Below, piece after piece: positions 13,384-60,199 of a DNA stretch of 64,000 nt (positions within the stretch are counted from its first letter, which is position 1; every line of letters begins with the position of its first letter). The notes below the pieces were generated by a model. That model was not told the origin of the DNA. It saw only the letters and a list, made by a program, of their open reading frames with translations, and ran no database searches. The translations under genes were made by a program, and so were the position numbers. The stretch spans positions 1 through 64,000 of the forward strand of contig NZ_VOXD01000017.1 of NCBI RefSeq assembly GCF_008014675.1, in the 5' to 3' direction. The stretch comes from Neolewinella aurantiaca (GTDB taxonomy: Bacteria; Bacteroidota; Bacteroidia; Chitinophagales; Saprospiraceae).

Positions 13384-13401
13384 TGCACCTGCGGCCCCGC
13401 C
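13384..13401 (-). repeat. 18-bp dispersed motif copy (GGCGCGNNCGCAGGTGCA family)
   Basis: It matches the consensus at 15 of 16 fixed positions. On the plus strand it reads TGCACCTGCGGCCCCGCC, pointing toward the metalloprotease start 138 bp away. A degenerate opposite copy lies at about 13329-13346, and the two form an imperfect hairpin-capable unit. Confidence 0.7.
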
Positions 13402-13538
13402 CAAAAAATGCTTTACTCTTTCTTTTACCCTTCGTAATTCAAACACCGTGCGGCCGTCTTCGGTTAATGATGTTTTAACGGGGATACATTAACTTGCAGA
13501 CCTATTCTTACAAAGGCGACTTAAATTATCAGTCTCAC

Positions 13539-16500
13539 ATGAAAAACCTGTTTCTACTTCTCTTTTTACTCTTTTACGGAGTAGGGGTAAACGCTCAAAT
13601 CGACCTCTTCTCCACCAGCTCTCTCAAAAACGATGATTTTTCCGAAAACGAACGGCGGGCAGCACCCACCCAGGCTGCGTTTTTCGAACTCAGCGACCCG
13701 GCAGAACTGGCCACAGTGCTGCAAAAAGCTCCCGCAGATGAGACCTTTTCCGCCGGCGAAGAACTGCTTCTCACGCTGCCTAATCCGGACGGTGTAAAAT
13801 CCACCTTCCGTATCACCAGATACCAGTTGATTACGGACGAACTTCAGGCCGTGTTCCCTTCCTTTGTCACAGCCTACGGTTGGGACGTTGAAGCACCGCA
13901 CCGTAAAGTCTTTCTCGAGTGGACCGACCTTGGTTTTGGAGCCAGCGTAACCGGCGGCCGGGAAGGACGTTGGTACATAGCACCAACCTTCTGGAAAAGA
14001 ACCGACCACTACCAAAGCTACTACACCCGCAACTACCCCGCTCCTGAAGAATTACACTCCTGCGGTTTCACCCCCAACGAGGAGCTCCGTGCTGAAATCG
14101 AGGCCTTTGTGCCGTCCGGCAAAATGGTCGGAGACTGCCAGTTGCGTGAATACGATCTCGCATTGGCTTGTACCGGCGAATACTTCGCCGCGGTGGGAGG
14201 AACTCGGGCATCTGTTGTGTCCGAAATGATGACCGCCATCAACCGTGTAAATGAAGTGTTCCGTGCCGATTTGGCCATCACTCTGAAAATCATCAACCTG
14301 CCGGTAGCCGGCGGTGGCATTCAACTCATCTACAACGACCCGGCAACAGATCCTTACACCAACAACAATGGCGTAACGATGCTGGGCGAAAACCAAACAA
14401 ACGTAGACAACGTAATCGGTAGTGCGAACTACGATATTGGCCACGTATTCAGCACCGGTGGTGGTGGTGTAGCCAGCCTCGGCAGCCCCTGTAACAGCTT
14501 TGTTAAAGCACGGGGAGTGACCGGACTTACCAACCCTACCGGTGATCCGTTTTACATCGATTTTGTCGCCCACGAAATCGGCCACCAGTTTGGTGGTAAC
14601 CACACCTTTAACTCTACGGAATCCAACTGTGCCACCCGCTATGAAGACACAGCCTACGAGCCCGGCGGCGGAACCACCATCCAGGCCTACGCAGGAATAT
14701 GTGGATCTATGGCCAACATACAGCTGAACAGTGATCCGTACTACCACGCAATCAGTATTCAGGAGATTTCGGCCTATATGGAACTAGCCGGTGGCGCTAG
14801 TTGCGCTTCTGTTCTTTCCACCACCAATACAGCTCCTTCGGTGGCTGCGGGCGCTGATTACACCATCCCGACCAACACTCCATTTGTGCTCACTGCTGTC
14901 AACGGAGCAGACGGCGACGGCGATGCCCTGACCTACTGCTGGGAGCAGTTTGACCTCGGCCCCGTAGTGGCCGGAGAGCCAACCGGCAACGAAGTTACCG
15001 GTCCGCTTTTCAGGTCTTTACCCCCGGATCCGGCACCCGAGCGGTACTTTCCCCGGCTTGCTTCTGTAGTTAGCGGAACATCGGATTGGGAGTCACTTCC
15101 TCTGGCAGCACGATCCATGAAATTCGTCGTAACCATCCGTGATTTCGGCGGAGCCGGCTACGGCTGTACAGTACAGGACGAAACCGACATTACGGTGGTA
15201 AACACCGGTAGTCAGTACGCTGTAACTACCCCTGACGGAGGTGAAATCTGGAGTCCTGGCGCGACGGAAACCGTCACCTGGAACGTAGCAGGAACTGACG
15301 ACAACGGAATCAACTGTGCCAACGTAGACCTCGTGTTGTCTACCGACGGTGGTACCAGCTTTACGCAGGTACTCGCTACTGTCCCCAATAACGGTTCTGC
15401 AGCCATCACCGTACCCGCAATGCTGACGGAATCTGCCCGGATTATGATCCGGTGCAGCGACAATATTTTCTACGATATCAGCGACAGCGACTTCTCGATT
15501 CGAAGTACAGAATTCCTCCTCAGCGGAGCCTCCGATCAGGCATCGGTTTGCAGCGGTGTAAACGAAGTTGTATTTACCGTAGATGTAACGAGTTCTCAGG
15601 CATATACAGGCTCTGTTGACTTAAGCATTGCAACGGGTCTTCCTGCCGGAGCTACTGTCGCTTTTTCTACAGATCCGGTCGTTTTCAATGCGGGAAATAT
15701 CAATACAACTGAGACCGTAACCGTCACCATCGGCAACCTCTCCGGAGCAGCAGCCGGAGACTATACCATCGCGGTTCAGGGAGACGACGGCAGCGATACG
15801 AAGAGCACCCCACTATCGCTCAACATAGGTGACGGCCCACTGACACTGCAGTCGCCAAATGATAATTCTATGCAAGTCGAAGGTGAAAGCGTTGACTTTG
15901 TTTTCTTAACCATTGACGGCCTGAATCGCTACATTATCAGCTATGAAATTTACCGTGGCAATGTCCTCCAGAGTGGCGGTGGAACCGGAACTGTTTATTC
16001 CGCAAACCCCGGAGACGGGGCGGTTGTAACGCTTTCTGAAATGCTTGGAAATATGGTTGGAGACGAAGTCCGCTGGTTCGTTACGGCCAGCGACGATAAC
16101 AACGTAAACCCGGACGTGGTCTCCTGCACCAGAACCTATACCCTGGTGGATGTTCTCCCCGTAAACTGGCTCGATTTCACAGCACGCGCAGCGGGCAAGA
16201 CGGCGATGTTGAACTGGTCCGTTGAGCAGGATGCTTTGAATACCGGTTTCGCGATTGAGCGCAACCTCCCCGGCACAAGTAACTGGGAGCAGAAAGGTTA
16301 TGTTCACCGCAGTGGTCCCGACGGTATTGCGGCGTACTTATATACCGATGAAACTGTAATTTCTGGCAATACGTATCACTACCGCCTCCGGCAGGAAGAT
16401 GCCGACGGAGCGATTAGTTACTCGGGCATTAGAACGGTAACTTTTGAAGGTACTGAGGAAATCATCCTGGTCCCCAATCCCGCCAGTAATTTCGTACTGC

Positions 16501-16694
16501 TGAATGCCGGCATTGAAGCCAATGCCGACCTGCGCTATACAATTTACAGTCCCGCAGGACGCAAGGTTTCTGAAGGAACTGTAAACAGCGGCCAGGCCCG
16601 TCTGGATATCAGTCAATTACCTTCCGCCGTTTACCAGGTCGTGGTTACCGGCGAAGCGGGATACTTGAAAGTAGCCCGATTGATCAAGAGGTAA
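13539..16694 (+). CDS. Secreted reprolysin-like zinc metalloprotease with T9SS sorting domain
   Basis: This 1,051-residue exported protease has a signal peptide that ends in NAQ at about residue 20. The catalytic zinc motif HEIGHQFGGNH is at residues 345-355, the metzincin HExxHxxGxxH signature. A downstream GSMANIQ segment could be the Met-turn. This resembles the M12B/reprolysin-like peptidases of Bacteroidota. PKD/Ig-like regions follow. The last ~75 residues (from LVPNPASNFVLLNAG to RLIKR) are a type A T9SS C-terminal sorting domain, so the protein should reach the cell surface or medium. An earlier in-frame ATG at 13494 would place 15 residues before the signal peptide; the 13539 start is preferred. 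A strong terminator follows the stop codon. It may act on extracellular protein as a nutrient source; that is inference. Confidence 0.93.
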   Translation: MKNLFLLLFLLFYGVGVNAQIDLFSTSSLKNDDFSENERRAAPTQAAFFELSDPAELATVLQKAPADETFSAGEELLLTLPNPDGVKSTFRITRYQLITDELQAVFPSFVTAYGWDVEAPHRKVFLEWTDLGFGASVTGGREGRWYIAPTFWKRTDHYQSYYTRNYPAPEELHSCGFTPNEELRAEIEAFVPSGKMVGDCQLREYDLALACTGEYFAAVGGTRASVVSEMMTAINRVNEVFRADLAITLKIINLPVAGGGIQLIYNDPATDPYTNNNGVTMLGENQTNVDNVIGSANYDIGHVFSTGGGGVASLGSPCNSFVKARGVTGLTNPTGDPFYIDFVAHEIGHQFGGNHTFNSTESNCATRYEDTAYEPGGGTTIQAYAGICGSMANIQLNSDPYYHAISIQEISAYMELAGGASCASVLSTTNTAPSVAAGADYTIPTNTPFVLTAVNGADGDGDALTYCWEQFDLGPVVAGEPTGNEVTGPLFRSLPPDPAPERYFPRLASVVSGTSDWESLPLAARSMKFVVTIRDFGGAGYGCTVQDETDITVVNTGSQYAVTTPDGGEIWSPGATETVTWNVAGTDDNGINCANVDLVLSTDGGTSFTQVLATVPNNGSAAITVPAMLTESARIMIRCSDNIFYDISDSDFSIRSTEFLLSGASDQASVCSGVNEVVFTVDVTSSQAYTGSVDLSIATGLPAGATVAFSTDPVVFNAGNINTTETVTVTIGNLSGAAAGDYTIAVQGDDGSDTKSTPLSLNIGDGPLTLQSPNDNSMQVEGESVDFVFLTIDGLNRYIISYEIYRGNVLQSGGGTGTVYSANPGDGAVVTLSEMLGNMVGDEVRWFVTASDDNNVNPDVVSCTRTYTLVDVLPVNWLDFTARAAGKTAMLNWSVEQDALNTGFAIERNLPGTSNWEQKGYVHRSGPDGIAAYLYTDETVISGNTYHYRLRQEDADGAISYSGIRTVTFEGTEEIILVPNPASNFVLLNAGIEANADLRYTIYSPAGRKVSEGTVNSGQARLDISQLPSAVYQVVVTGEAGYLKVARLIKR

Positions 16695-16731
16695 TATTAT
16701 TCGCAAATAATATTTAATCTATTGAAAGCGA

Positions 16732-16771
16732 GAATCGCACAACGAGGTTTCGTTGTGCGATTCTTTTTTTT
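16732..16771 (+). terminator. Rho-independent terminator after the metalloprotease gene
   Basis: A perfect 14-bp stem (16732-16745 with 16750-16763) with loop GGTT is followed by eight T residues. It lies 38 bp after the protease stop codon. Confidence 0.93.
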
Positions 16772-16885
16772 CGTTAGTAAAATTAAACGAGAGACGTTAA
16801 CAATACGAAGGGACTTTGCGTAGCCGCAGCCTCGTTTCAGTCCTTCGCGCTGCGAAATATTAATTAAATCAGATGTCACGCTAAA

Positions 16886-16992
16886 CACGTGACGGGCGCA
16901 AACCAGATTGTTGCTCACCCCCTTCCCAGCCTCCCCACATCGCTACGCTGGGGAGGAGCAATCGCGACAATCTGGTTTGCGCCCCACGTGAC
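16886..16992. mobile_element. 91-bp palindromic miniature element with 8-bp target duplication (copy 1)
   Basis: The element at 16894-16984 begins GGGCGCAAACCAGATTGT and ends with its reverse complement. Inner arms are also complementary (CAGCCTCCCCA with TGGGGAGG). Perfect direct repeats CACGTGAC flank it at 16886-16893 and 16985-16992, as expected for a target-site duplication. It encodes nothing and lies between the protease terminator and the sigma factor stop codon. A second copy in opposite orientation is at 24805-25000. It resembles a MITE mobilised in trans; no transposase is in the window. Confidence 0.75.
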
Positions 16993-16998
16993 CTTCTG

Positions 16999-17493: not shown

Positions 17494-17517
17494 AATTCTC
17501 AAACTTCTTGTGCACCA

Positions 17518-17547
17518 CAAAATTAGTGGCGCAAACGCAGGTGCAAA
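17518..17547 (-). promoter_or_regulatory. Promoter of the sigma factor gene, overlapping the 18-bp motif
   Basis: On the minus strand TTTG (17544-17547), 18 bp, then TAATTTTG (17518-17525) fits the -33/-7 consensus TTTG/TAnnTTTG. The 18-bp dispersed motif (17528-17545) fills almost the whole spacer and overlaps the -33 box. This is the clearest case of the motif sitting inside a promoter. Confidence 0.6.
17528..17545 (+). repeat. 18-bp dispersed motif copy
   Basis: GGCGCAAACGCAGGTGCA matches 15 of 16 fixed positions. It lies 35 bp upstream of the minus-strand sigma gene, reading TGCACC toward that gene. The following bases (AGCCAGTTTTGGATGAAGCA) resemble those after the copy at 37863. Confidence 0.8.
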
Positions 17548-17660
17548 GCCAGTTTTGGATGAAGCATCGTTTTTTAAGGATGAACGGGGTGGAACATGTA
17601 CCCGCCAACCCCAATAAACCGATTCAGACACCATTACCCTGTGCCAACATTCCTCTCAAC

Positions 17661-17825: not shown

Positions 17826-17855
17826 TAGCACTGCACCGACCTTAACCGATCAAAA

Positions 17856-18791: not shown

Positions 18792-18843
18792 ACCCAGGCA
18801 TTGATTACAGTATATTTAAAAACATATACACTCCGCGATACTA

Positions 18844-20139: not shown

Positions 20140-20215
20140 TTCTATGAAAAAGGTTTAACGGGATTTAAAGTTCGGCATAAGGAATGATTTCGTTTGAACT
20201 AACTTCACCGGTACT

Positions 20216-21430: not shown

Positions 21431-21448
21431 TGCACCTGCGTGCGCGCC
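21431..21448 (-). repeat. 18-bp dispersed motif copy
   Basis: This is a full match (16 of 16), reading TGCACCTGCGTGCGCGCC toward the plus-strand oxidoreductase gene that starts 45 bp on. TTTG at 21429-21432 and CACTTTTG at 21453-21460 are 20 bp apart, so the motif could occupy a promoter spacer. Confidence 0.8.
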
Positions 21449-24186: not shown

Positions 24187-24502
24187 AGTTTTCTTTGGTT
24201 TCCTGGTCAGTTCGTTTGGTGCGAAGAAGCTGGTTAGGCTCCGGCTAAATATAAACCAAACGGCGGGATATTTATTTGGCGCTTACGCAGGTGCAAGGTG
24301 CGGAATTTTGAGCGGAGTTGAAGCCCCGTAAACCATTATAAAAACCAAACAGCGCTCAGAGCCCGGCGGTCTCAGCACTGTCCGCTACATCTCCGAATAC
24401 GCTTTTAACGATAGCAGACCCTTCCGGAAAGATCCGGAAGAGCCTGCTTGCAGCGCATTAAATCCGAAATGATTTGCTGTCACTTCGTTTATGGAAGCGG
24501 AT
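24187..24502. other. Intergenic region between arginine deiminase and the small secreted protein
   Basis: No gene is seen. It holds the 18-bp motif copy at 24278. It also has a hairpin CTTCCGGA-AAGA-TCCGGAAG (24421-24440), and inverted repeats TTAAATCCG/CGGATTTAA at 24458-24466 and 24498-24506 that overlap the stop of the small minus-strand gene. These hairpins could end that transcript, but no T-run follows. Confidence 0.5.
24278..24295 (+). repeat. 18-bp dispersed motif copy
   Basis: GGCGCTTACGCAGGTGCA matches 15 of 16. It is upstream of the minus-strand arginine deiminase gene and reads TGCACC toward it. On that strand TTGCA is followed after 17 bp by TAAATATC, a weak -7 candidate. Confidence 0.75.
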
Positions 24503-25302: not shown

Positions 25303-27291
25303 ATGTCCAAAATCAATATTCCTTCCGAGAACGGTGACCTCATGCTAACCAAATCGACCAGGCTGGTCGGGCTGAAGAAACGTATCGAGGGTAAAGATAT
25401 GGACGAAGTGGACGCCAACGTTATCCCCGATCTTGGTGGCTTCGAAGTCGTGACCCTCAATCCCGGTCAGAGTATCGACGACGCACTCGATCACGCCCGC
25501 AATCATCAGGACGTTGAAGTGGGCACCCATGTGTACTTCGCCGAAGGAGACAACCGCCCCGTAGTTGCTACCGGCATCATTTACTGCGAAATGGCCGACG
25601 GCGTCGGGAAAGAGGAGCGCCAGGTCATTTTTGACGCCTTCGCCCTGGACATCCTGGAAGACCGCGAAGACGGTACGGTGGTCTGTAAAGTGACCCCCAA
25701 AAGTCCTAACCCGCTTAAAGTGGCTGCTGCGCTGGACAAACTCAGCATGATCAGCAAAGCTTACCCAGACCTCGACGTACCCCTCGATCAATACTTTTTG
25801 GAGCCACGTGATGGCCTGCTCCCCCACGAGTGGCATCTCGAAAATCAGGGCTTTGTTTCCGACGTACCGAGCTTCCGCCTCAAAGTCGGAGCAGATGCCA
25901 AAGTCAAGGCCGCCTGGCGGCGGCTTGGCAACCTCGGTTCGTCCAGCATTATCGTTGCTGTGATCGACAATGGCTTCGACCTCAACCATCCTGATCTGAG
26001 GGGTAAGGCGGTCGCTCCCCTGAGCATCAGTTCCAACAGTTCAACCCTACCTACCGGTTCGGCTTACGGTGATCACGCAACGCCCTGTTCCAGCGTTGCC
26101 GTTGCCGCAGCCAACGGTACAGGAATTGTTGGGGCAGCACCCAACTCCCGGCTCATGCCCCTGCACGGCCTGACCTACTCTAAATACCTTACGGAAAGAA
26201 TGTTCAATCATTGCGTTCGTAACCGGGCAGACATCATCAGTTGCAGCTGGGGTACCATCGACCCCCGCTACCGCCCGGGTACCGAGCACGAGCGCGCCAT
26301 TCGTTTGGCGCTGACTTCGGGCCGGAACGGGAAAGGATGCGTGGTCGTGTTCGCCGCCGGTAACGAAGGCCGGGAATACATAAATTACTACGCCAGCATT
26401 CCGGGCGTCATAGCCGTAGGGGCGAGCACCAGTTCAGACACCCACGCCAGTTACTCCAACCGGGGCAACGGCATTAGTGTCGTTGCTCCATCGGATGGCG
26501 GATGGCCTATCCTGGCAGCCCGCGCTGCGTGGGACCAGGGAAATTCTGCTATGCCCGCAAACAAACGTTACTACGTCGATGGTATCGACAGGGGCCAGAA
26601 CTACAAGCATTTTGGCGGAACGAGTTCGGCTACGCCGCTCGTGGCGGGCATCTGTGCGCTGGTTCTCAGCGCCAACCCCAACCTCACCAGCGTTGAAGTA
26701 AAGTCCATTCTCGAAAGAACTGCCGACAAGATCGGCAATACGTGGGATTACAACTCCAGCGGCTACTCTACCAAGTACGGCTACGGTCGGGTCAATGCAG
26801 ACGCTGCCGTCGCCGAGGCGATACGGATGCGTGGTGGAACCACGACAACAACCACTACCACCACCCCCGTCACGACCACTCCGCCGGTCACGACACCTAC
26901 CACCCCAACGACCACGACTGTCCCCAGAGACACAACAACGACGACGACAACTACGCCGTCAACCCCCACTGCACCTGCGCCCGCGCCTACCACACCGATG
27001 GTCACCGGCACGAACCTCTTTCAATTTTCCGTTACCGGGCAGGCCCGCAACGGCTATGGTCTTCAGGTAAGCGTCAATAACGAATTTGCCAACGTTCTCA
27101 AGCAAGTCGAAGAGCTCGAACGCAAATACAGCCTGCCGGTACTTGTCAACATCAGCACCGTAAACGGACGTACTGCCTTCAAACTCCTCATTGGTCCTTT
27201 CAGCACCCAGGCACAAGCCGATGTTGCCAAGCGCAAAATGGTGAGTCTTGGTGCAGCAGAACCGTGGCTGCGCCCCCTGAGCTCACTGTAG
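25303..27291 (+). CDS. S8 family serine peptidase (subtilisin-like) with C-terminal SPOR domain
   Basis: This 662-residue protein has an N-terminal region of about 200 residues with no known motif. The subtilase domain has the complete triad: Asp222 (VIDNGFDLNHPDL), His258 (GDHATP) and Ser441 (GGTSSATPLVAG), plus the oxyanion Asn in AAGNEG. A low-complexity Thr/Pro linker (about 510-565) leads to a C-terminal SPOR-like domain (about 575-662; NGYGLQVSVNNEF and LLIGPFSTQAQADVAKRKM). SPOR domains bind glycan strands of peptidoglycan stripped of peptides, which implies a cell-wall location. However, no signal peptide or membrane span is seen at the N-terminus, and no better upstream start is visible. 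The linker contains a copy of the 18-bp motif (26970-26987), here encoding APAPAP. Confidence 0.9.
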   Translation: MSKINIPSENGDLMLTKSTRLVGLKKRIEGKDMDEVDANVIPDLGGFEVVTLNPGQSIDDALDHARNHQDVEVGTHVYFAEGDNRPVVATGIIYCEMADGVGKEERQVIFDAFALDILEDREDGTVVCKVTPKSPNPLKVAAALDKLSMISKAYPDLDVPLDQYFLEPRDGLLPHEWHLENQGFVSDVPSFRLKVGADAKVKAAWRRLGNLGSSSIIVAVIDNGFDLNHPDLRGKAVAPLSISSNSSTLPTGSAYGDHATPCSSVAVAAANGTGIVGAAPNSRLMPLHGLTYSKYLTERMFNHCVRNRADIISCSWGTIDPRYRPGTEHERAIRLALTSGRNGKGCVVVFAAGNEGREYINYYASIPGVIAVGASTSSDTHASYSNRGNGISVVAPSDGGWPILAARAAWDQGNSAMPANKRYYVDGIDRGQNYKHFGGTSSATPLVAGICALVLSANPNLTSVEVKSILERTADKIGNTWDYNSSGYSTKYGYGRVNADAAVAEAIRMRGGTTTTTTTTTPVTTTPPVTTPTTPTTTTVPRDTTTTTTTTPSTPTAPAPAPTTPMVTGTNLFQFSVTGQARNGYGLQVSVNNEFANVLKQVEELERKYSLPVLVNISTVNGRTAFKLLIGPFSTQAQADVAKRKMVSLGAAEPWLRPLSSL

Positions 27292-27819: not shown

Positions 27820-27837
27820 GGCGCGGCCGCAGGTGCA
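27820..27837 (+). repeat. 18-bp dispersed motif copy
   Basis: GGCGCGGCCGCAGGTGCA is a full match (16 of 16). It starts 16 bp after the stop of the small lipoprotein gene and lies in a convergent intergenic region, so it is not upstream of any gene start. Confidence 0.85.
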
Positions 27838-28511: not shown

Positions 28512-29537
28512 ATGAGATTTTTTTTGTTAACACTGGCATTTGTACTTACAACTTGTTCAGACCCCGCTCCGTCCACCATTTCTGCACCTGCGGCCGCGCC
28601 CCATGGCCCTGGCATTTACTACTGGAAAACTAGTTGGAGCCTGCCCCCTCTCGAACAAGATGCATTAGCGAAGGCTGGAACAAAGCAACTTTTTGTCCGC
28701 TTATTCGATATAGATTACGACTTCAACCGGGAAGAAGCCCGACCGAAAGGACTGCTGAAACTCCCCGACTCGCTCGGGGTTCAACATGACTTTACGCTCG
28801 TTCCGGTAGTCTACATCGTAGAGCGGGTTTTCCGGCAGAACATAGAGGTAGAAGAGCTTGCCCGACGCACCGCCCGAACCATCCGCGGCATCGCCGCGGG
28901 CCACCCAGGCCTCTCGTCGGCAAGCCGTTGGCAAATCGATTGCGACTGGACCGTTGTCTCGCGCGATCGCTACTTCGCTTTCCTTGAAGATCTGCAACAG
29001 CAAAACCCGGACCTGACCCTCAGCGTAACGGTTCGTCTGCACCAGTACCGTGAGCGGATAGAAAACGGCATTCCTCCTGTCCCCGAAGGATTGCTGATGT
29101 GCTACAACATGGAGCCGGTTTCAGACGCTGGATCTACTAACGCAATTTACCAGGAGAAGCTCCTGCGAGGGTACCTGAAAGCCCCTCCCTACCCTATCCC
29201 TCTGGACGCGGCACTGCCGGTTTTCAGTTGGGGTGCGGCCTTCCGGGACAGTCACTTCCTGGGCATTACAGACGAGCCGTTCAGCCTGCCCGGGCTCCAG
29301 CAGGAGATTGCTCCGTCCCGCTTCATAATCCTGAAGGACACCACCATCAACGGCACGTTCCTCCGGGCCGGCGACAACCTCAGGTACGATGGCCCCGGCG
29401 ACCTGGCAAAACTCAGGGCTGCGGCACAACTGCTGAAACAAAAAACCGAAGTCAGGGACCTGTTGCTTTTCGACTGGCAAGAAGGCCTGACAAATAAGTA
29501 CCCTCCGGGGGAAATCTGGAAAGAGTTTTACCGTTAG
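28512..29537 (+). CDS. Hypothetical lipoprotein, possible TIM-barrel fold
   Basis: This is a 341-residue protein with a short lipoprotein signal (lipobox LTTC, Cys at 15), then an Ala/Pro linker that contains a full 18-bp motif copy (28583-28600, encoding APAAAP). The mature part has alternating strands and helices with phrases such as LFVRLFDIDYD, WQIDCDWTVVSRDRYFAFL, LTLSVTVRLHQY and FSWGAAF. These suggest a glycoside-hydrolase-like barrel, but no family can be named with confidence. It is followed after 3 bp by the 810-residue gene, so the two are almost certainly one operon and likely act together at the cell envelope. Confidence 0.75.
   Translation: MRFFLLTLAFVLTTCSDPAPSTISAPAAAPHGPGIYYWKTSWSLPPLEQDALAKAGTKQLFVRLFDIDYDFNREEARPKGLLKLPDSLGVQHDFTLVPVVYIVERVFRQNIEVEELARRTARTIRGIAAGHPGLSSASRWQIDCDWTVVSRDRYFAFLEDLQQQNPDLTLSVTVRLHQYRERIENGIPPVPEGLLMCYNMEPVSDAGSTNAIYQEKLLRGYLKAPPYPIPLDAALPVFSWGAAFRDSHFLGITDEPFSLPGLQQEIAPSRFIILKDTTINGTFLRAGDNLRYDGPGDLAKLRAAAQLLKQKTEVRDLLLFDWQEGLTNKYPPGEIWKEFYR
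28583..28600 (-). repeat. 18-bp dispersed motif copy inside a coding linker
   Basis: This is a full match (16 of 16), lying just behind the lipobox of the lipoprotein gene and encoding the Ala/Pro tether. It reads TGCACC in the direction of the gene. Confidence 0.75.
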
Positions 29538-37862: not shown

Positions 37863-37880
37863 GGCGCGGACGCAGGTGCA
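37863..37880 (+). repeat. 18-bp dispersed motif copy
   Basis: GGCGCGGACGCAGGTGCA is a full match (16 of 16), 76 bp upstream of the minus-strand nuclease gene. The next bases (AGCCGGTTTTCCCGAAGCAT) resemble those next to the copy at 17528, so the conserved unit is longer than 18 bp here. Confidence 0.85.
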
Positions 37881-38000: not shown

Positions 38001-38018
38001 TGCACCCGCGTCCGCGCC
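38001..38018 (-). repeat. 18-bp dispersed motif copy
   Basis: TGCACCCGCGTCCGCGCC matches 15 of 16 and reads toward leuC, 83 bp before its start. CACTTTAA follows 20 bp after TGCA, the same arrangement as at 21431. Confidence 0.75.
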
Positions 38019-41429: not shown

Positions 41430-41447
41430 GGCGCGAACGCAGGTGCA
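41430..41447 (+). repeat. 18-bp dispersed motif copy
   Basis: GGCGCGAACGCAGGTGCA is a full match (16 of 16), 27 bp after the leuB stop. With the opposed copy at 38001 it brackets the leuCDB genes, both copies reading TGCACC inward. Confidence 0.85.
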
Positions 41448-42546: not shown

Positions 42547-43098
42547 CTACAGATCTCTCACCATGTAAATATCACAGCCGCTGTGCCCTGTTTCGCCCAT
42601 TGGCCAGCCGAGCAGTTCGAATCCGTTCTTTTTGTAGACCTCTGCGGCGGTTGTCATGGCAGAGACGGTTTCGAGGTAAATTTTTTCGTAGCCAGCCGCG
42701 CGTGCGCCTTCGAGGCAGGCGTTCATCAGCAGTTTCCCGCCGCCGTAACCGCGGGCTTCCTTCAGGATGTACATTTTCCGAAGTTCGCAGACCGTTCCGT
42801 CTCCTCCGGCCAGAGGGGCAAAGCCGGCACAGCCTACAATCACTGCTCCTCCAAAATCCTGCACTGCACCTGCATTCGTGCCAAAAAAAGTCTCGTTTCT
42901 GACTATCGGGCCTCCTACTTCTTCTTCGATGACGAAGAAAGCGGAGCCTTCCCCCGCGTAAGCTTTTGCCATATCCTCAACTTCGGGATCATTGATGGAA
43001 TAGCCTTCACCGACACAGTTGAATTCCGGCATTACCGTTCGAATGACGTGGGCGACCATATGGTTGTCGGCGGGGGTAATTGGGCGGAGCGCGAGCAT
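42547..43098 (-). CDS. GNAT family N-acetyltransferase
   Basis: This is a 183-residue single-domain acetyltransferase that should move an acetyl group from acetyl-CoA to an amine. The acetyl-CoA loop is seen in ELRKMYILKEARGYGGGKLLM (R/Q-x-x-G-x-G/A variant), followed by the helix ACLEGARAAGYEKIYLETVS and the C-terminal strand GFELLGWPMGETGHSGCDIYM. The substrate is not predictable. It contains a diverged 18-bp motif copy (42865-42882) in reading frame. Just upstream is the hpt gene; the 53-bp gap would allow co-transcription. Confidence 0.88.
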   Translation of the reverse strand: MLALRPITPADNHMVAHVIRTVMPEFNCVGEGYSINDPEVEDMAKAYAGEGSAFFVIEEEVGGPIVRNETFFGTNAGAVQDFGGAVIVGCAGFAPLAGGDGTVCELRKMYILKEARGYGGGKLLMNACLEGARAAGYEKIYLETVSAMTTAAEVYKKNGFELLGWPMGETGHSGCDIYMVRDL

Positions 43099-49703: not shown

Positions 49704-49721
49704 GGCGCGGCCGCAGGTACA
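49704..49721 (+). repeat. 18-bp dispersed motif copy
   Basis: GGCGCGGCCGCAGGTACA matches 15 of 16 and begins directly after the stop codon of the DUF6624-like gene. It is paired with the opposed copy at 49943; sequences just inside both copies are also related (GAGGAGGT...ATCGGC and GAGAGGTAATCGGC). Confidence 0.75.
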
Positions 49722-50068
49722 GAGGAGGTTGAAGGAGATCGGCAGACAGAGGAGTTTTGATTCGACTGCACCCAAAACGGGACAGGGCGCAAACGACCGA
49801 CCTGAAAAGATCGTTGCCGACCTCGCTATCTGGTTACGTATCATTTACGCGACTTGAAGTCGCTTCTGCCGACTAATCACCAAGAGGTGAATGCGGCTGG
49901 CTTACGCTTCAACGGTGAAGCCAAATGCCGATTACCTCTCTTTGCACCTGCACTCGTGCCAGATACTACTCAACCCTAAACAAATCTATCAACCTTTAAA
50001 TTACCCCACAAATTGTTTAAATAATTAACTGCAGTTTCGTATGTTTGCAGGGTTAAGCAAAGTACTAA
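49722..50068. other. Intergenic region upstream of parE
   Basis: No gene is seen. Several short palindromes occur, among them GCGACTTGAAGTCGC (49849-49863) and GCTTCA-ACGG-TGAAGC (about 49906-49921). Together with the flanking opposed 18-bp motifs they suggest a diverged palindromic element of about 257 bp. Confidence 0.5.
49943..49960 (-). repeat. 18-bp dispersed motif copy
   Basis: TGCACCTGCACTCGTGCC matches 14 of 16 and reads toward parE, about 110 bp before its start. TTTG at 49941-49944 overlaps it. Confidence 0.65.
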
Positions 50069-54476: not shown

Positions 54477-56255
54477 ATGCGCTTCCCCCAACCACGCAAC
54501 ATCGCTTACACTTTACTTGTCTTTGCCGCTATCGTTGGCGGATGGATGTACTCGCGCGCCACAGCGGAAGAGTTGTGGGGCTACCGCCCTCTACTGCTTT
54601 ACCTTCTGCTTTTCGGTGGATATTTTTTGTTCCGGTATGTACCCAACAAAAAGAGCCCCAAACCCGGTTACCTCCTCCCCGTTTATGCAGGAGCGCTGCT
54701 GGGACTGGGTTTCGCGGGAGACTTCGGTATTTTCCCGGCTCTTTTCGTAGGGTTCGTCCCGATGTTCATCCTCTTTCGGAAGCTACAGGAGCGTAATGCG
54801 GGCTACGCAGAAGCTTTCCGACTTGGGTTTACGGCCTTTCTCCTGTTCAACATCCTTACTACGTACTGGGTCACCAATACCGGCTTTGGGCCCGGGCTTT
54901 TCGCCATGCTGGCCAATAGCGTCCTGATGTCTTTGCCGTGGCTGGCGTTTTACTGGACGGGGAGGAAGTCTCCCAAAGTGGCGTTCCTAGCGTTCGGGGC
55001 CTGCTGGATCGCTTTCGAGCACCTCCACTACAATTGGGGATTGAACTGGCCGTGGTTAACCCTTGGCAACGGAATGGCTAGCTGGCCCGCCCTTATCCAG
55101 TGGTACGAAGTTACGGGCGTACTCGGCGGATCGGCCTGGATACTGGGATGTAACTACCTTGCCTTTAAAGCCCTCTCTGCACCTGCTGCCGAGCCCCAAA
55201 AGCTGCCTTCGCCAGGTAAACTCCTCTCCTTTCTCGCCTTGGTTTTATTGCCCATATCCGGCTCTTTGGTCAGGTACTACACCTACGTTGCGCCCGAGGA
55301 CAAGACCATAACGGTAGCCGCTATTCAGCCCAACTTCGAGCCTCATTTCGAGAAATTCGCTGCCGGAGGAGAACCAGCCGTGATCGATACGTTCGTCCGC
55401 CTCAGCAAGGATGCGCTGGCTGCAGGGCCGCTCGATTACATCGTTTACCCGGAAACCAGCTTCAGCAATTTCGAAGAAGACCGGCCGCTCCTCAACGGCC
55501 CCATGCGCATTCTGCAAAGTGAGCTCGGTAACGGGAGCCTGGGTCACCTGGTTACCGGCTACTCCGGTTACCACGCTTTCCAGGCGGGGGAACCTCTCAG
55601 CCCGGCCGCCCGTACCCTCGACCGCGGCAACGGCACGCTGTTCCGCTACGAGCACCTGAATGCGGCACTGCAACTGGACCTGGACACCAAAGAAGTTCAA
55701 CATTACCGCAAGGGCGTCTTCGTCCCCGGTGCCGAATCCTTTCCTTTCCGCAAAGTGCTCTTTTTCATGGAGCCCCTTGTCGCCAGCCTCGGCGGCTCAG
55801 TAGCGGGCCTCGGCACACAGGAGACGCGAACACCATTTTCCTCCCCAAAAGCCAAAATCGCTCCAGTGATCTGTTACGAATCCGTTTTTGGCGAGTACTT
55901 CACCGACTATATCCGCGAAGGAGCGCAAGCCGTCTTCGTGATGACCAACGATGGCTGGTGGGACAATACGGCCGGCCACAAGCAACACCTTTACTACAGC
56001 AGCTTACGAGCCATTGAAACCCGGCGGGCCGTCGTACGCTCGGCTAACGTAGGGGCGTGCGCCTTTATCGATCAGCGCGGACAAATAATCAGCACGACGC
56101 AGTACAACGAAGCCGGCTTCCTGCGGGGAGAGATGCAGCTCAACGACGCAATCACCCCCTACGTCCGTTACGGCGACATCGTATCCCGGATAGCTCTCTT
56201 GCTGGCGGGGATGGTATTACTGAGCAACCTGGCCAGGTCATTACGCCGAAACTGA
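54477..56255 (+). CDS. lnt: Apolipoprotein N-acyltransferase
   Basis: This 592-residue inner-membrane enzyme adds the third acyl chain to lipoproteins, which fits the many lipoproteins in the window. Several hydrophobic segments fill the N-terminal ~270 residues. The periplasmic nitrilase-like domain has the triad Glu326 (YPETSF), Lys412 (RKGVFVPGAE) and Cys466 (VICYES). A final span is near residues 570-590. It is about 80 residues longer than the E. coli enzyme. An ATG at 54405 would add 24 residues without homology, so 54477 is used. A diverged 18-bp motif copy lies in frame (55178-55195). It precedes a BamA-like gene by 102 bp. Confidence 0.92.
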   Translation: MRFPQPRNIAYTLLVFAAIVGGWMYSRATAEELWGYRPLLLYLLLFGGYFLFRYVPNKKSPKPGYLLPVYAGALLGLGFAGDFGIFPALFVGFVPMFILFRKLQERNAGYAEAFRLGFTAFLLFNILTTYWVTNTGFGPGLFAMLANSVLMSLPWLAFYWTGRKSPKVAFLAFGACWIAFEHLHYNWGLNWPWLTLGNGMASWPALIQWYEVTGVLGGSAWILGCNYLAFKALSAPAAEPQKLPSPGKLLSFLALVLLPISGSLVRYYTYVAPEDKTITVAAIQPNFEPHFEKFAAGGEPAVIDTFVRLSKDALAAGPLDYIVYPETSFSNFEEDRPLLNGPMRILQSELGNGSLGHLVTGYSGYHAFQAGEPLSPAARTLDRGNGTLFRYEHLNAALQLDLDTKEVQHYRKGVFVPGAESFPFRKVLFFMEPLVASLGGSVAGLGTQETRTPFSSPKAKIAPVICYESVFGEYFTDYIREGAQAVFVMTNDGWWDNTAGHKQHLYYSSLRAIETRRAVVRSANVGACAFIDQRGQIISTTQYNEAGFLRGEMQLNDAITPYVRYGDIVSRIALLLAGMVLLSNLARSLRRN

Positions 56256-56357
56256 AGTGGTGCATAAAATCGTTCCCCGGCAATACGAATCATCGGAAAA
56301 CCAGGACTGGTTTGCTTCAGCCACAACATTCCACCACCTCATCGACGTTTTCTGCAG

Positions 56358-58100
56358 GTGAAGTTAGTTGGCATCTTCTTTTTGTGGGCGCTGGCGCTGG
56401 TGCCAGGAACGGTTGAAGGGCAAGGCTCCGTCAACCTGAACATCATCGCAACCGACTTCGAGCCGAAAGACAGCACCAAAATATTCTCCGACTCCGCCGC
56501 AATGGTGGTCTACCTGAAGGAGTGGATTGAACTGGCACGGGCAAAAGCCCACTGGGAGGCTTCCGTAGACAGCCTCTACCGCACCGGAAAGGCCTCCTTC
56601 ACCGCTGTTCTCCACCAGGGTGCGGCCTATGCATGGGCCGGCCTCACCCCTCCGGATGACGAAGCTGCGCTTCGTTGGCTGCGCCGGTCCGGTTTCCGCG
56701 AACGACGCTTTGCAGCCGGTCGCCCGCTGCGCCCCGAAGCCTGGAGTGGCATCCGGGACAGCACCCTGGTGCGTGCCGCCAACGACGGCTACCCCTTTGC
56801 CGCAATCGGCCTCGAAGACGTAGACCTCACCGAACCTGGTCAGCTATCGGCCCGCATCAGCCTGAACACCGGCCCGCTGGTCCGGATCGGCGAAGTCAGC
56901 GCCCCGGAATCCGTAAGGGTTCGCCCTGCCTTTCTGCAACGTTACCTCGGGCTACAGGAAGGAGAAGTGTACCGGGGCCAAAGGGTTCGTCGTATGGCTG
57001 CCAGCCTGAACCAGTTGCCTTACGTCACGATGAAGGGTAGCCCACTGATCAGTTTTCAGGATAGCCTGGCCTTCTTCGATCTGCCGCTGGAGCGTAAAGC
57101 CGCCAGTCGTTTCGATTTTGTGATCGGCGTTTTGCCCAACTCCGCCCAAACGGGCAAGCTCCTCATTACCGGCGAACTCAACGGTGAATTGCAAAACGGC
57201 TTTGGCCAGGGCGAACGAATTGCCGTTCGTTTCGAGCAGCTCCGCCCTCAGACCCAGGAGCTCGAGCTGGGCCTGGAATATCCATTTCTGTTCGGTCTCC
57301 CCTTCGGTTTCGAAGGAGAATTGGACCTCTACCGCCGCGACAGTTCTTTCGTTAACCTCAACTGGAAACTCGCCGCGACTTACCTCAGAGAAGGCAACGA
57401 CCGGCTCTCTGCCTTCTGGGAAAACCGCCGGACCATCGTTCCAGGTCAGGACCTCAGCGAGGAGCCCGACATCGAAGAGCTCCCTGATACCCTTGGTGTT
57501 GTCCGCTCATTTTTCGGGCTGCAGGCCCGCCGGTTGCGGACCGACCGGCGGTTCAGTCCCCGCCGGGGTTACACCATCGACGTCAGCGCCTCAGCCGGTT
57601 TCCGGCGTTTGCCGGCGTTTGCCAACCTTGCCCCTGACGAGAGAACCTCCGCGCAGGCCCAGTTGCAAGGAACCGCGGAGGCCTTTCTGGACCCCATTTC
57701 CGGCTCAGTGATCTATTTCCGGCTTACAGGAGCGGGGATCTTCAGCGGCGAAGCGCTCCTCGCCAGCGAACAGTACCGGATCGGGGGCGCTAAGTTGCTG
57801 AGGGGATTTGACGAACAATCTGTTTTTGCACGTGATTACGCCGTGCTCACTACCGAATTCCGGCTGTTGCTGGGGGGGAATGCTTTCCTGTACGGTTTCC
57901 TGGACGCCGCCCGCGTCAACCCCCGCGACAAAAGTCGCCCGGAACTCGACATCGACTATCCTATCGGTTTCGGGGCGGGTATCAACGTAGATACCAGAGC
58001 GGGAGTATTCGGATTAAGTCTTGCGTTAGGGAAGAGTAATGGTATTCCGCTGCAGCTCGATGCACCTAAGGTTCATCTGGGGTACGTGAGCGTCTTTTAG
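56358..58100 (+). CDS. BamA/TamA-like outer-membrane barrel protein
   Basis: This 580-residue protein starts at a GTG and has a signal peptide (about 1-22, ending TVEGQ). The N-terminal ~220 residues look like one or two POTRA-type domains (YRTGKASFTAVLHQGAAYAW, NDGYPFAAIGLEDVDL, RQRVRRMAASLNQLP-like). The rest is a surface-antigen (Bac_surface_Ag) beta-barrel with alternating aromatic strands. The final strands include EQYRIGGAKLLRGFDEQSVFARDYAVLTTEFR, where the RGFxE-type motif of the family is visible. It is shorter than BamA, so an accessory assembly or secretion role is likely. Confidence 0.8.
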   Translation: MKLVGIFFLWALALVPGTVEGQGSVNLNIIATDFEPKDSTKIFSDSAAMVVYLKEWIELARAKAHWEASVDSLYRTGKASFTAVLHQGAAYAWAGLTPPDDEAALRWLRRSGFRERRFAAGRPLRPEAWSGIRDSTLVRAANDGYPFAAIGLEDVDLTEPGQLSARISLNTGPLVRIGEVSAPESVRVRPAFLQRYLGLQEGEVYRGQRVRRMAASLNQLPYVTMKGSPLISFQDSLAFFDLPLERKAASRFDFVIGVLPNSAQTGKLLITGELNGELQNGFGQGERIAVRFEQLRPQTQELELGLEYPFLFGLPFGFEGELDLYRRDSSFVNLNWKLAATYLREGNDRLSAFWENRRTIVPGQDLSEEPDIEELPDTLGVVRSFFGLQARRLRTDRRFSPRRGYTIDVSASAGFRRLPAFANLAPDERTSAQAQLQGTAEAFLDPISGSVIYFRLTGAGIFSGEALLASEQYRIGGAKLLRGFDEQSVFARDYAVLTTEFRLLLGGNAFLYGFLDAARVNPRDKSRPELDIDYPIGFGAGINVDTRAGVFGLSLALGKSNGIPLQLDAPKVHLGYVSVF

Positions 58101-58128
58101 TGGCCTCTTGTGGCCTTTCGGGGCGCCC

Positions 58129-58935
58129 TTATACCGACAGTTTGTTATCTATGGTTTCCTGAGCGTTACTTCCCTGATTATCTGCTGCAGCAGTTGCCGA
58201 CACACTGCGTACGGCAGCGGCCAACTCCGGCAACCAGTTCACGTCTTTCTCCAGCGCGTTGCCTACCACCACCATATCGGCTCCCGCGGTCAGCGATTCG
58301 GCGGCGCGGGCTGCGGTACGAATTCCTCCGCCAACAACGATGGGCAGGTCCACTTCACGCCGGACGGCCTTAATTACTTTCCCGGAAACGGGGTTAAGCG
58401 CTCCGCTGCCGGCGTCCATATAGATCATTTTCATCCCGAGCTGTTCTCCGGCCAGGGCCGTGGCTGCGGCAATCGGGGGTTTATCCGCCGGAATCGGCGT
58501 TGTGTTGCTCATGTAAGACACCGACGTTGGCCGGCCTCCATCAATGAGCATATATCCTGTAGCAATCGTTTCCAGGCCCATCCGCTTAACCTTTACGGCT
58601 ACCTGAACGTGGCGCCCGATGAGCATGTCGGGGTTACGCCCTGAAATCAGGGACAGCAGGAACAGAGCATCAGCCTGTTCATCCAGCTGGTTTACGGATC
58701 CGGGAAAAAGGATGACCGGCGTAGACTTGGCGTTGTCTTTGAGAAGCTTCAGAAAATACTCTGCCTGCAATGCATTCACCAGGCTTCCTCCCCAAAGGAA
58801 AACATCGACTTCACCTTTGTTGGCGTGTGCGGCCAACTCTAACAGGTTTTCCCGACGGGCTTTATCCGGGTCAATTAGCACGGCCAGTAATTTCTTGCCG
58901 GCGGCCCGGGCTTCGGAGAGTAGGGAGTATACCAT
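58129..58935 (-). CDS. Geranylgeranylglyceryl phosphate synthase (PcrB/GGGPS family)
   Basis: This 268-residue TIM-barrel prenyltransferase joins a polyprenyl diphosphate to glycerol-1-phosphate. Visible motifs are LLAVLIDPDK (about 16-25), LWGGSLVNA (about 48), PVILFPGSVNQL, the TGYMLIDGG loop, YMDAGSGA, and the phosphate-binding LPIVVGGGIRTA and GADMVVVGNALEKD. Such enzymes make archaeal ether lipids; bacterial homologues are known in Bacteroidota and Firmicutes, where their product is less clear. An ATG at 59007 would add 24 residues and is not favoured. Confidence 0.9.
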   Translation of the reverse strand: MVYSLLSEARAAGKKLLAVLIDPDKARRENLLELAAHANKGEVDVFLWGGSLVNALQAEYFLKLLKDNAKSTPVILFPGSVNQLDEQADALFLLSLISGRNPDMLIGRHVQVAVKVKRMGLETIATGYMLIDGGRPTSVSYMSNTTPIPADKPPIAAATALAGEQLGMKMIYMDAGSGALNPVSGKVIKAVRREVDLPIVVGGGIRTAARAAESLTAGADMVVVGNALEKDVNWLPELAAAVRSVSATAAADNQGSNAQETIDNKLSV

Positions 58936-59045
58936 AAGTGGCGGGTAAAATCTGCTTTGGCGCAAGGTACGGACAAATTCGGGCATCGAATTGGCCTGAA
59001 ACAACAAAGACTCCGTACCGGGTGGTACGAAGTCTCTGATGAATG

Positions 59046-59130
59046 TGCCCAGAACAGGAGTCGAACCTGCACGTCCGCAATGGACACCAGCCCCTCAAGC
59101 TGGCGTGTCTACCAATTCCACCATCTGGGC
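59046..59130 (-). tRNA. tRNA-Leu (anticodon GAG)
   Basis: The 85-nt cloverleaf has acceptor arms GCCCAGA and TCTGGGC, an anticodon stem CCAGC/GCTGG with loop TTGAGGG (anticodon GAG, for CUC and CUU), a long variable arm typical of Leu, and the T-loop TTCGACT. CCA is not encoded. It lies 111 bp upstream of the GGGP synthase start on the same strand. Confidence 0.95.
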
Positions 59131-59309
59131 GGGGTATGAAGAGTGTTCCATGTTTACCTTTCGAAGCGAGCTTCTATTTGGGTGAAAAACATGAATCATT
59201 CTCCCGGAGCGAGCGCAAAAGTAATACGCCAAAACAATGTGAGCAAGTTTTCTGAAGAAAATAGTTCATTTTTTTATTTCATGCCGAAAACAAAAGCGGT
59301 TAGCTACGC

Positions 59310-59331
59310 ATTTGATGTATGTACATCAAAT
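59310..59331. promoter_or_regulatory. Operator-like palindrome before the pirin gene
   Basis: ATTTGATGTA-TG-TACATCAAAT is a 22-bp inverted repeat with 10-bp perfect arms, ending 8 bp before the pirin start codon. Its size and symmetry fit a dimeric helix-turn-helix repressor (MarR/HxlR-like). No such gene is in the window. Confidence 0.65.
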
Positions 59332-59339
59332 ATTAATTC

Positions 59340-60059
59340 ATGCATTCTGTACTACATAAAGCGGGCAGCAGAGGCCTGGCCGACCATGGTTGGCTCACAA
59401 GTTATCATTCGTTCAGTTTTGCTCAATACTATAATCCTGAACGAATGCACTTTGGTGCACTCCGGGTACTGAACGATGATTTGGTAGCCCCCGGCCGTGG
59501 TTTCGGGAAACATCCACACGACAATATGGAGATCATCTCCATCCCGTTGTCCGGAGACCTGAGGCATGAAGACTCAATGGGTAATACGACGATCATCCGC
59601 GAGGGCGACGTGCAGGCGATGAGCGCAGGAACCGGAGTAGCGCACAGTGAGAAGAACGACTCCACCATTGCTCCCGTCGAGTTTCTGCAAATATGGGTCT
59701 TTCCCAAACAGCGCAACATTGCCCCGGCCTACAGTCAGATCACCCTTACTCCGGAAGACACTTCGGGCCAGCTTAGCCAGATCGTTTCACCCAGTGCGGA
59801 TGAGGCCGGCGTGACCATAAATCAGGATGCCTGGTTTCACTTGGGCAACCTCTCTGCGGGAACAACACAGGACTACCACCTCAGGAAAGCTGGTAACGGT
59901 GTTTATGCCTTTCTGCTCGAAGGCGACGCTACCGTTGCCGGTCAGGAACTGAACAAGCGTGATGGCCTTGGCTTATGGGAAACCGACTCGGTTTCCATCG
60001 CCGCGACTACCGACGTAAGGATATTACTCATGGAAGTGCCTATGGAGATTCCTCGCTAA
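59340..60059 (+). CDS. Pirin family protein
   Basis: This is a 239-residue bicupin. The N-terminal cupin has the metal-site pattern HPHDNMEIISIPLSG (about 58-72) with a further His in HSEKND (about 102) and a Glu nearby. Some bacterial pirins are quercetin dioxygenases and others regulate metabolic enzymes; the role here is not fixed. The start is 8 bp after a 22-bp palindrome, so it is likely under a repressor. The nitroreductase that follows 199 bp on may share the same stress response; that is inference. Confidence 0.9.
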   Translation: MHSVLHKAGSRGLADHGWLTSYHSFSFAQYYNPERMHFGALRVLNDDLVAPGRGFGKHPHDNMEIISIPLSGDLRHEDSMGNTTIIREGDVQAMSAGTGVAHSEKNDSTIAPVEFLQIWVFPKQRNIAPAYSQITLTPEDTSGQLSQIVSPSADEAGVTINQDAWFHLGNLSAGTTQDYHLRKAGNGVYAFLLEGDATVAGQELNKRDGLGLWETDSVSIAATTDVRILLMEVPMEIPR

Positions 60060-60087
60060 GAAACAAAACTGACTGCCATAAAGAACC

Positions 60088-60105
60088 GGCGCGAACGCAG
60101 GTGCT
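60088..60105 (+). repeat. 18-bp dispersed motif copy
   Basis: GGCGCGAACGCAGGTGCT matches 15 of 16, starts 29 bp after the pirin stop and pairs with the opposed copy at 60182. The 112-bp segment between and including them is an imperfect palindrome. Confidence 0.75.
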
Positions 60106-60181
60106 GTAACGGTTGCGACCAGCAAAGGCTTAAGGAAGGCTCTTGCCAGCCTGCTTATCCTTGCTCATTCAACCAACGCCC

Positions 60182-60199
60182 TGCACCTGCGGCCCCGCC
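60182..60199 (-). repeat. 18-bp dispersed motif copy
   Basis: TGCACCTGCGGCCCCGCC matches 15 of 16 and reads toward the nitroreductase, 58 bp before its start. TAAACTTC follows 19 bp after TGCA as a possible -7 box. Confidence 0.75.

Follow-up and report, generated by a model that had tools for sequence, protein, structure and literature searches.

An 18-bp motif repeated along the window

We analyzed an 18-bp motif dispersed along the first 64,000 nucleotides of contig NZ_VOXD01000017.1 of Neolewinella aurantiaca, a 64-kb stretch referred to here as the window. Scored on the 16 fixed bases of the motif, the window contained 21 matches with up to three mismatches, compared with 0.74 expected from 100 dinucleotide shuffles, the largest of which gave 5. 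All 19 copies listed in a first-pass annotation made from the sequence are present at the positions given below, with 0 to 2 mismatches, and two more, at 13325 and 56387 on the plus strand, have three mismatches each. Genes were called with a home-made gene finder, according to which 12 of the 19 are intergenic. Within the window, the annotation was also right on orientation: eight intergenic copies lie upstream of a gene, with TGCACC...GCGCC reading toward it, and four lie downstream of a gene and read the opposite way.

Three copies without mismatches (925..942, 5350..5367, and 6907..6924) lie on the minus strand within a very long (10.9-kb) minus-strand gene with repeated units (1-10923). 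The last two sit in two copies of one unit, with near-identical upstream sequence, and are rare same-orientation neighbors, only 1.6 kb apart. Further along, a minus-strand intergenic copy with one mismatch (13384..13401) forms an inward pair with the plus-strand three-mismatch copy at 13325..13342 (matrix score of 29.3). Other inward pairs are formed by 37863..37880 (plus, no mismatches) and 38001..38018 (minus, one mismatch), between divergent genes; by 49704..49721 (plus, one mismatch), immediately 3' of a gene end, and 49943..49960 (minus, two mismatches); and by 60088..60105 (plus) and 60182..60199 (minus), with one mismatch each. Further intergenic copies occur at 17528..17545 (plus, one mismatch), 21431..21448 (minus, none), 24278..24295 (plus, one), 27820..27837 (plus, none, 15 bp past a gene end), and 41430..41447 (plus, none). 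Copies on the minus strand were found at 26970..26987 (no mismatches) in gene 25303-27291, at 28583..28600 (none) in gene 28512-29537, at 42865..42882 (two) in gene 42547-43098, and at 55178..55195 (two) in gene 54477-56255, and the second three-mismatch copy, at 56387..56404 (plus), has good flanks and a matrix score of 36.7. From 6907 to 49943, orientation alternates strictly over 15 consecutive copies, the three-mismatch copy at 13325 included. Among other genomes (designated here by G numbers), G002, G003, and G008 have a copy at the place matching 42865, gap-free among themselves and gapped relative to N. aurantiaca, and the copy at 55178 aligns with copies of one to three mismatches in G002, G003, and G005.

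Copy number and extent of the motif

The whole genome of N. aurantiaca (5,995,659 bases in 104 contigs) contained 1,605 copies with up to two mismatches, 802 forward and 803 reverse, compared with three matches (1 + 2) for the reversed pattern. The first-pass statement that chance cannot explain the motif is thus strongly supported, both in the window and genome-wide, the motif being far commoner than in shuffled or reversed sequence. In a 459-kb sample of the same genome, a matrix built from its own copies gave 154 matches with a score of at least 12, against 1 in simulated sequence; 147 of them scored at least 20, so that there are few intermediate sites. The logo of 140 copies reaches well beyond 18 bp, with a T-rich head at about positions -7 to -3, a core (GGCGCG-G-(A/C)-CGCAGGTGCA), and a tail with RRG at 18-20, G-K-T-T at 24-27, and purines to about +37. 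The core pattern can be written as G-GGCG-NNNN-CGC-N-GG-N-GC, and the whole footprint covers ca. 45 bp. These flanks accompany copies both within and between genes, being weaker within genes. No palindrome was found in the 140-copy logo, where GCG-NN-CGC alone is symmetric. In 10 stretches, the two strands had roughly equal counts, with 7/12 and 9/14 as the most uneven.

Position within and between genes

In the 459-kb sample, of which ca. 85% is coding, 77 of the 140 copies are intergenic, 62 lie in genes, and 1 is at a contig edge. In all 10 genomes compared, the intergenic density was 1.8 to 17 times the coding density. The proposed tie between motif orientation and gene starts or ends proved to be a bias and not an absolute rule, since in this larger sample the TGCA side of the intergenic copies pointed away from the nearest gene in 51 cases and toward it in 18 (8 were mid-way), and the genic copies were equally distributed between both orientations (32 and 30). 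Pooling nine other genomes, this side or its equivalent gave an away-to-toward ratio of 70:33, with the opposite trend in G012 and G014.

Within genes, copies are tolerated according to rules visible in the sequence. One coding-strand frame is unused (0/32 in N. aurantiaca and 0/58 in six dialect genomes sharing its register), and by translation of the main dialects, it would encode R-G-R-R-C or similar. In G001, G007, and G011, whose registers differ, the same pattern frame is unused too (16 coding-strand copies in all). The longest motif-free gap in the sample was 10.8 kb, compared with 16.8 kb expected at random. To see whether stretches without the motif could be foreign islands, we inspected the protein starts in the four longest gaps by eye, with no domain search, and none looked plainly mobile.

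Orientation of neighboring copies

Orientation changes in 104 of 137 adjacent pairs in N. aurantiaca, compared with 69.2 (standard deviation, 5.8) for shuffled labels, and the alternation persisted without the copies in pairs closer than 600 bp (70/97 versus 48.9). Genome by genome, alternation was significant in G017, G014, and G001 (P<0.02) and not in G004, G019, G012, G009, and G011, and in 5 of 10 stretches, copies were spaced more evenly than expected at random (P<0.02). We then counted pairs in distance bins of 0-0.5, 0.5-1, 1-2, 2-3, and 3-4 kb. Same-orientation pairs in N. aurantiaca numbered 0, 0, 6, 12, and 20, against 10.5, 10.5, 21, 21, and 21 expected, and opposite-orientation pairs numbered 18, 14, 17, 18, and 20. 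For the eight other GC-type genomes pooled, the corresponding counts were 2, 2, 5, 8, and 12 (expected, 10.9, 10.9, 21.7, 21.7, and 21.7) and 14, 13, 23, 19, and 21; G011 had too few copies to judge this statistic. Same-orientation copies exclude each other over ca. 3 kb and opposite copies do not, and neighbors alternate because same-orientation pairs are depleted at close range. This holds across genes, since neighbors up to 3 kb apart and separated by 150 bp or more of gene are opposite in 49 cases and in the same orientation in 10. At the shortest distances, 14 of the 16 adjacent pairs closer than 300 bp in N. aurantiaca are inward pairs, with loops of 26 to 228 nucleotides. From this pattern, we infer that the site would act directionally and that its reach would be a few kilobases. 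Among the literature matches listed, the available passages describe no strand-spacing rule for the DNA uptake sequences (DUS) or uptake signal sequences (USS) of other bacteria.

A genus-specific motif with dialects

Across 298 genomes drawn from the order, counts rose clearly above the control in Neolewinella members only. Genomes of other genera had 0 to 6 matches per strand (maximum of 9 in all), with 0 to 7 for the reversed control. Of the 15 Neolewinella members drawn, G001 had 10 matches in all and the others had 71 to 1,506. Among the 21 genus genomes searched at two mismatches, the count was lowest in G011 (10, close to the 5 of its control) and highest in G005 (1,783), and most Neolewinella genomes examined carry hundreds to more than 1,000 copies (1,211 in G018, for instance). 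Named records with the motif, among the matches listed, are N. agarilytica, N. persica, N. lacunae, N. antarctica, N. litorea, and metagenome bins, together with five records of other organisms with single matches. No motif of such a kind was found in ca. 100 kb each of the outgroup genera G021 and G023.

The low counts mostly reflect dialects of one design, which we obtained from de novo k-mers and top-N motif refinement. Simulated sequence was taken as the background for this refinement because a control made of reversed sequence is partly drawn to the reversed motif. The dialect core has a density of 17 to 31 copies per 100 kb in 12 of the 18 genus members sampled and of 0.5 to 6 in G013, G015, G016, G007, G001, and G011, the last three of which carry different, strong motifs. 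G012 and G017 share the dialect GGGCGGGGNCGCAGGTGCA, and those of G019, G014, and G004 are GGGCGCGGNCGCGGGTGCA, GGGCGCTGCCGC(A/G)GGTGC, and GGGCGGGGNCGCGGGAGC, respectively. G001 has GGCGGCGGAGCGCAGGTA, with the same T-rich head and a different hinge length, and G007 has GGGCGCCGGAGCGC(A/G)GG, with a longer hinge. Information content was 29 to 32 bits, compared with ca. 14 to 15 in simulated sequence, and the motifs of G013, G015, and G016 were weak (18 to 20 bits). G011 carries a replacement motif, TTGRCTAACAAAGTAGCA, with 471 + 440 = 911 copies of a 15-base pattern that has at most 6 matches in each of the other 147 genomes searched. It also has a T-rich head, and 10 of its 21 bases are identical to the main motif in an end-to-end alignment, a resemblance that is suggestive only.

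Evolution of individual sites

We examined 212 spanning ortholog alignments, leaving out 88 with a flank identity of <0.6. In the 124 counted, not all of which are independent, as one locus may count more than once, 48 keep the motif, 51 are gap-free without it (32 with at least five mismatches and 19 with three or four), 24 are gapped in the core, and 1 shows a clean absence of at least 12 bases. These alignments indicate that copies have spread mostly without insertion.

For a closer comparison, we used copies exact on 12 fixed bases in 300 kb each of G017 and G004. In G017 (n=49), 29 were alignable, of which 27 were kept, 1 was lost, and 1 was gapped, and 20 were unalignable. In G004 (n=44), 27 were alignable (25 kept and 2 lost) and 17 were not. 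Expressed as loci, 28 were kept, 3 were lost, and 1 was gapped at a flank (background) identity of 0.77, for which the kept share calculated without constraint is ca. 0.2. Judged from these counts, motif sites are more conserved than their surroundings. We also found four substitutions at 336 fixed positions, a figure that partly reflects the selection of matching sites, as the kept-to-lost counts do not. In the dialect comparison of the same genomes (31 shared loci, 28 of them strong, plus 4 one-sided rows), changes cluster in the hinge and three dialect positions and are mostly one-directional (p14 T to A, 10:1; p11 A to G, 11:2; p17 A to C, 7:0), which indicates that dialect bases changed in place at orthologous sites.

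Competence genes and a receptor-like module in G011

A ComEC frame of 705 to 781 amino acids without stops was present in all 21 genus genomes and DprA in 20, the genome without a match being 55% complete. Both are common in bacteria and therefore weak as evidence. According to the available passages of one study (PMC8459023), transformation of Riemerella anatipestifer needs a DUF5689 surface protein and an outer-membrane protein from one predicted operon, neither of which belongs to the known pilus machinery; the full set comprises these two proteins, a helix-hairpin-helix protein, ComEC, DprA, ComF, and RecA.

We found DUF5689 in 1 of the 21 genomes, G011, at C115:7191-10592 (L377-L379), where a three-repeat DUF5689 protein lies directly downstream of a TonB-type barrel; neither protein was found in any other of the 21. 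The fetched part of the barrel had no Pfam match, and its relatives are partly named TonB-dependent receptors, some with carboxypeptidase regulatory domains. The DUF5689 protein is identical to that of Lewinellaceae bacterium SD302, which G011 appears to represent, and looks like a lipoprotein from its start and from a subthreshold NCBIfam match (117.8 bits; cutoff of 475). Its structural model (mean predicted local distance difference test [pLDDT] score of 90.7; predicted template modeling [pTM] score of 0.50) comprises several domains, and the best matches were HIN domains (several DNA bound), CST, Teb1, POT1, and RPA, with E values down to 1e-9. These are oligonucleotide/oligosaccharide-binding (OB) folds. 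The template modeling scores (TM-scores) were low (≤0.42 by target), which we attribute to the uncertain domain placement and the short targets. Thus, the only genome of the 21 with an unrelated motif is also the only one with a module resembling a DNA receptor, which is a coincidence and not proof.

Copies on phage contigs

Viral contigs from IMG/VR (L295-L326) were fetched by exact motif match, giving 32 stretches, of which seven with poor flanks were dropped. The remaining 25 (213 kb) contained 53 copies at two mismatches, 51 of them with a matrix score of >20, a density that is biased upward because the motif itself was used to find the contigs. The matches of ten proteins tested from three of these stretches include terminase, tape-measure, and tail-fiber families. 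Copies are often 3 to 4 kb apart, and all 10 adjacent same-orientation gaps are at least 3.3 kb, several of them in near-identical contigs. In related phage contigs, the 18 bases were identical at a flank identity of 64 to 75%, a comparison biased by both having been fetched by exact match. Phage copies fit either prophages in a recombining host or phages that copy a self-mark. Passages of one paper (PMC2397512) report the DUS of Neisseria to be absent from recently acquired genes.

A possible directional uptake sequence

The first-pass interpretation, which offered no mechanism, is partly supported by these results; soft flanks, dialects, the genus-only range, and the alternating orientation of neighbors lay beyond its reach. 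Given this set of properties, the reading that we favor, to which we give roughly an even chance, is that the motif may be a DNA-uptake-type self-recognition sequence of Neolewinella, read in one direction. We infer that the reader would be an uptake receptor, that uptake would be directional, and that transformation would be the drive. A DNA-binding receptor, probably at the cell surface, would recognize the ca. 45-bp double-stranded site (T-rich head, G-GGCG-NNNN-CGC-N-GG-N-GC core, and purine/GGTT tail) on DNA from lysed kin, which would be pulled in from the site in one direction and integrated by ComEC, DprA, and recombination. Preferential return of motif-bearing DNA, together with point mutation, would build up and maintain copies where genes tolerate them. 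A second same-orientation copy within ca. 3 kb would add nothing, because processing is proposed to be directional, and an opposite copy would add something. If the receptor changed, the copies would drift to a new dialect. More tentatively, the motif could possibly be a directional self-DNA code used by a pilus-independent outer-membrane import machine (a TonB-type barrel combined with a surface protein of OB fold, or an analogue), with each strand marked every few kilobases, phages copying the code, and receptor module and code swapped together in one species.

USS have a core with soft flanking segments, and the machinery of the Pasteurellaceae is pilus based. In the sources, as far as available, sequence-tagged uptake is described for this family and for the Neisseriaceae, both type IV pilus users. 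The DUS of the latter, according to passages of two papers (PMC3630211 and PMC2397512), are overrepresented, genic and frequent in permissive regions, arranged in part as inverted pairs, divided into dialects with an invariant part, and conserved at their sites. As far as those passages go, the Neolewinella motif resembles them in all these respects, with coding and denser noncoding copies, no strand bias, an invariant dialect core, and a ComEC/DprA core. It differs in its length (18-bp core and ca. 45-bp footprint), its phylum, its copies on phage contigs, the lack of a detected type IV pilus platform, and a same-orientation exclusion at the kilobase scale. Since it is DUS-like in nearly all properties testable by sequence, fails on the pilus, and adds directional spacing, we regard it as a motif that would work like an uptake sequence and do not file it as a member of these families. 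In Haemophilus influenzae, passages of one paper (PMC1939737) place 65% of USS in reading frames, with no chromosomal orientation bias and ca. 10% as inverted repeats, and describe their spacing in one place as significantly even and in another as less even than compaction needs. Soft-flanked cores are shared, as are, as far as these passages go, genic copies, strand balance, and inverted pairs; spacing in Neolewinella is strand specific, whereas motif orientation is reported there to have no effect on uptake in H. influenzae (PMC1939737).

Riemerella, in the same phylum, is the nearest comparison for the G011 pair, which is of similar make-up. For that genus, the available passages demonstrate no uptake motif of any length comparable to this one. 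R. columbina prefers its own DNA, and the putative motifs listed for it are A-rich k-mers of up to 10 bp (PMC7965970); among the literature matches listed, these putative k-mers were all that we found for Bacteroidota, with no demonstrated uptake motif. The cyanobacterial motif HIP1 (GCGATCGC) is likewise iterated genome-wide but is, in the descriptions available, an 8-bp palindrome linked to orphan methyltransferases, unlike the long, nonpalindromic Neolewinella motif with its dialects and strand-specific spacing.

Several observations weigh against a directional uptake sequence. G007 showed neither an excess of alternation nor same-strand evenness, spacing in G014 was less even than random, and evenness and alternation were not significant everywhere. 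On contig C1 of G011, all 14 exact sites listed are on the plus strand, despite the balanced genome total, which possibly reflects a larger-scale strand domain. The type IV pilus/type II platform family PF00482, the only pilus family searched, was found in 0 of the 21 genomes (and in 13 of 14 control genomes, all but the Bacteroides one). DUF5689 had no match in the other 20 genus genomes, so that the reader of the main motif is not pointed to. The G011 pair was likened to that of Riemerella by make-up. The link concerns one species, with a chance of about 1 in 21, and the pair is not necessarily unique to SD302 outside the 21 genomes, since proteins of "Lewinella sp." are relatives of both DUF5689 (P0059) and the barrel (P0125). 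Among the ortholog alignments, some of the 19 gap-free sites with just three or four mismatches carry another dialect, and a first, unfiltered look at orthologs of the window gave core gaps in 21 of 44 alignments, many of them poorly aligned and intergenic. Tailed-phage contigs carry full motif copies, orientation is reported to lack an effect in H. influenzae (see above), and among the literature matches listed, the available passages include no uptake experiment in Neolewinella.

Some of these points would suit an intracellular self-mark of the Chi type, in which a helicase-nuclease or recombination enzyme coming from a DNA end reads the site one way and in response ceases to degrade or begins to recombine, the mark being kept in host and phage DNA alike. 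Chi sites act over kilobases in an orientation-dependent manner. Exclusion among same-orientation copies over ca. 3 kb, with opposite copies independent, would agree with such a mark, and the 10 of 10 phage gaps of at least 3.3 kb are what phages copying a self-mark should show. We consider this explanation unlikely on the whole and retain it mainly on account of the phage copies. Known Chi sites measure 5 to 8 nucleotides, are read on single-stranded DNA, and favor one replication strand, whereas the site here has a soft-flanked footprint of ca. 45 bp with roughly balanced strands, and the coincidence of motif and DUF5689 in G011 would be left unexplained. Chi or FtsK-orienting polar sequences (KOPS) in the strict sense were rejected for site length and for strand balance, judged with no direct mapping of replication strands. 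A shade less probable again is a binding site for an abundant chromosome-organizing or other cytoplasmic protein, needed every few kilobases per strand. Even, strand-aware spacing, strong conservation of the fixed bases, and restriction to one genus would agree with it, but no protein of this type known to us has ca. 1,600 sites this long, a very large number of sites would have to change for a dialect to shift, the complete replacement in G011 would be hard to achieve, and phage copies would bring no obvious benefit.

Close direct repeats are unstable, and same-orientation exclusion could be mere avoidance of deletion-prone pairs, with no directional reader implied. We find this improbable, as the depletion does not depend on shared sequence: the near/far ratio was 0.26 for pairs sharing an identical run of <8 bases, 0.23 for 8 to 11, 0.55 for 12 to 17, and 0.47 for ≥18, and near pairs were not less alike than far ones (P=0.14). 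Deletion between direct repeats is therefore not supported as the simple cause of the strand spacing. More improbable still is a transcription signal (terminator, attenuator, or 5' untranslated region [5'-UTR] element of a large regulon), which would account for the intergenic enrichment and the gene-relative bias of 51:18 and for inward pairs, if these form hairpins. With 62 of 140 copies in genes in equal orientations, a promoter or 5'-UTR role is unlikely, as is any regulatory or RNA element; the loops of the inward pairs and the alternation across genes argue in the same direction. Finally, a miniature mobile element or a family of repetitive extragenic palindromes (REP or the paired REPIN) spread by transposition with REP-associated tyrosine transposases (RAYT) is close to refuted. 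The motif is dispersed, enriched between genes, and in part arranged as inward pairs, like such families, but it has no palindrome, 51 gap-free empty sites stand against 1 clean absence (and 24 core-gapped alignments), and orthologous sites change dialect in place. Y1 transposases number 0 to 7 per genome, with none found in G018 despite its many copies, and a two-mismatch copy was present in 12 of 30 fetched Y1 loci, about the expectation from density. Core copies on both sides occurred at one of these loci (L337; G012:C2, near 363941-364279), where they lie at 1252+ and 2063-. In the absence of a palindrome, of a consistently linked transposase, and of much insertional spread, transposition was rejected, and the first-pass opinion that the motif belongs to no named repeat family holds as far as tested.

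We know of no earlier uptake-sequence system in Bacteroidota, nor of any with an intrinsic direction. If the directional uptake reading is true, the Neolewinella motif would thus be, as far as known, the first of both. A strong tag in a Bacteroidota genus without sign of a type IV pilus would suggest that self-DNA recognition evolved anew with other machinery. It would also offer a natural test case for the joint change of a receptor and about a thousand sites in the genome. The strand-specific spacing would provide a handle on the direction and tract length of DNA import, and the G011 species would offer a concrete receptor candidate, the DUF5689 protein.

Further overrepresented sequences

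Other repeated sequences were noticed in the samples. In G007 (C1:400001-600000 and C2:700000-715000), TTAGTCTTTTAG occurs 26 times at up to one mismatch in 215 kb, compared with 0 to 3 in other samples. Overrepresented 9-mers were found in G019 (C1:1-100000), where TAGGCGGTA occurs 18 times versus 0.8 expected, and in G017 (C3:200001-300000), with 39 occurrences of GTCGGCCGA versus 4.0 expected.

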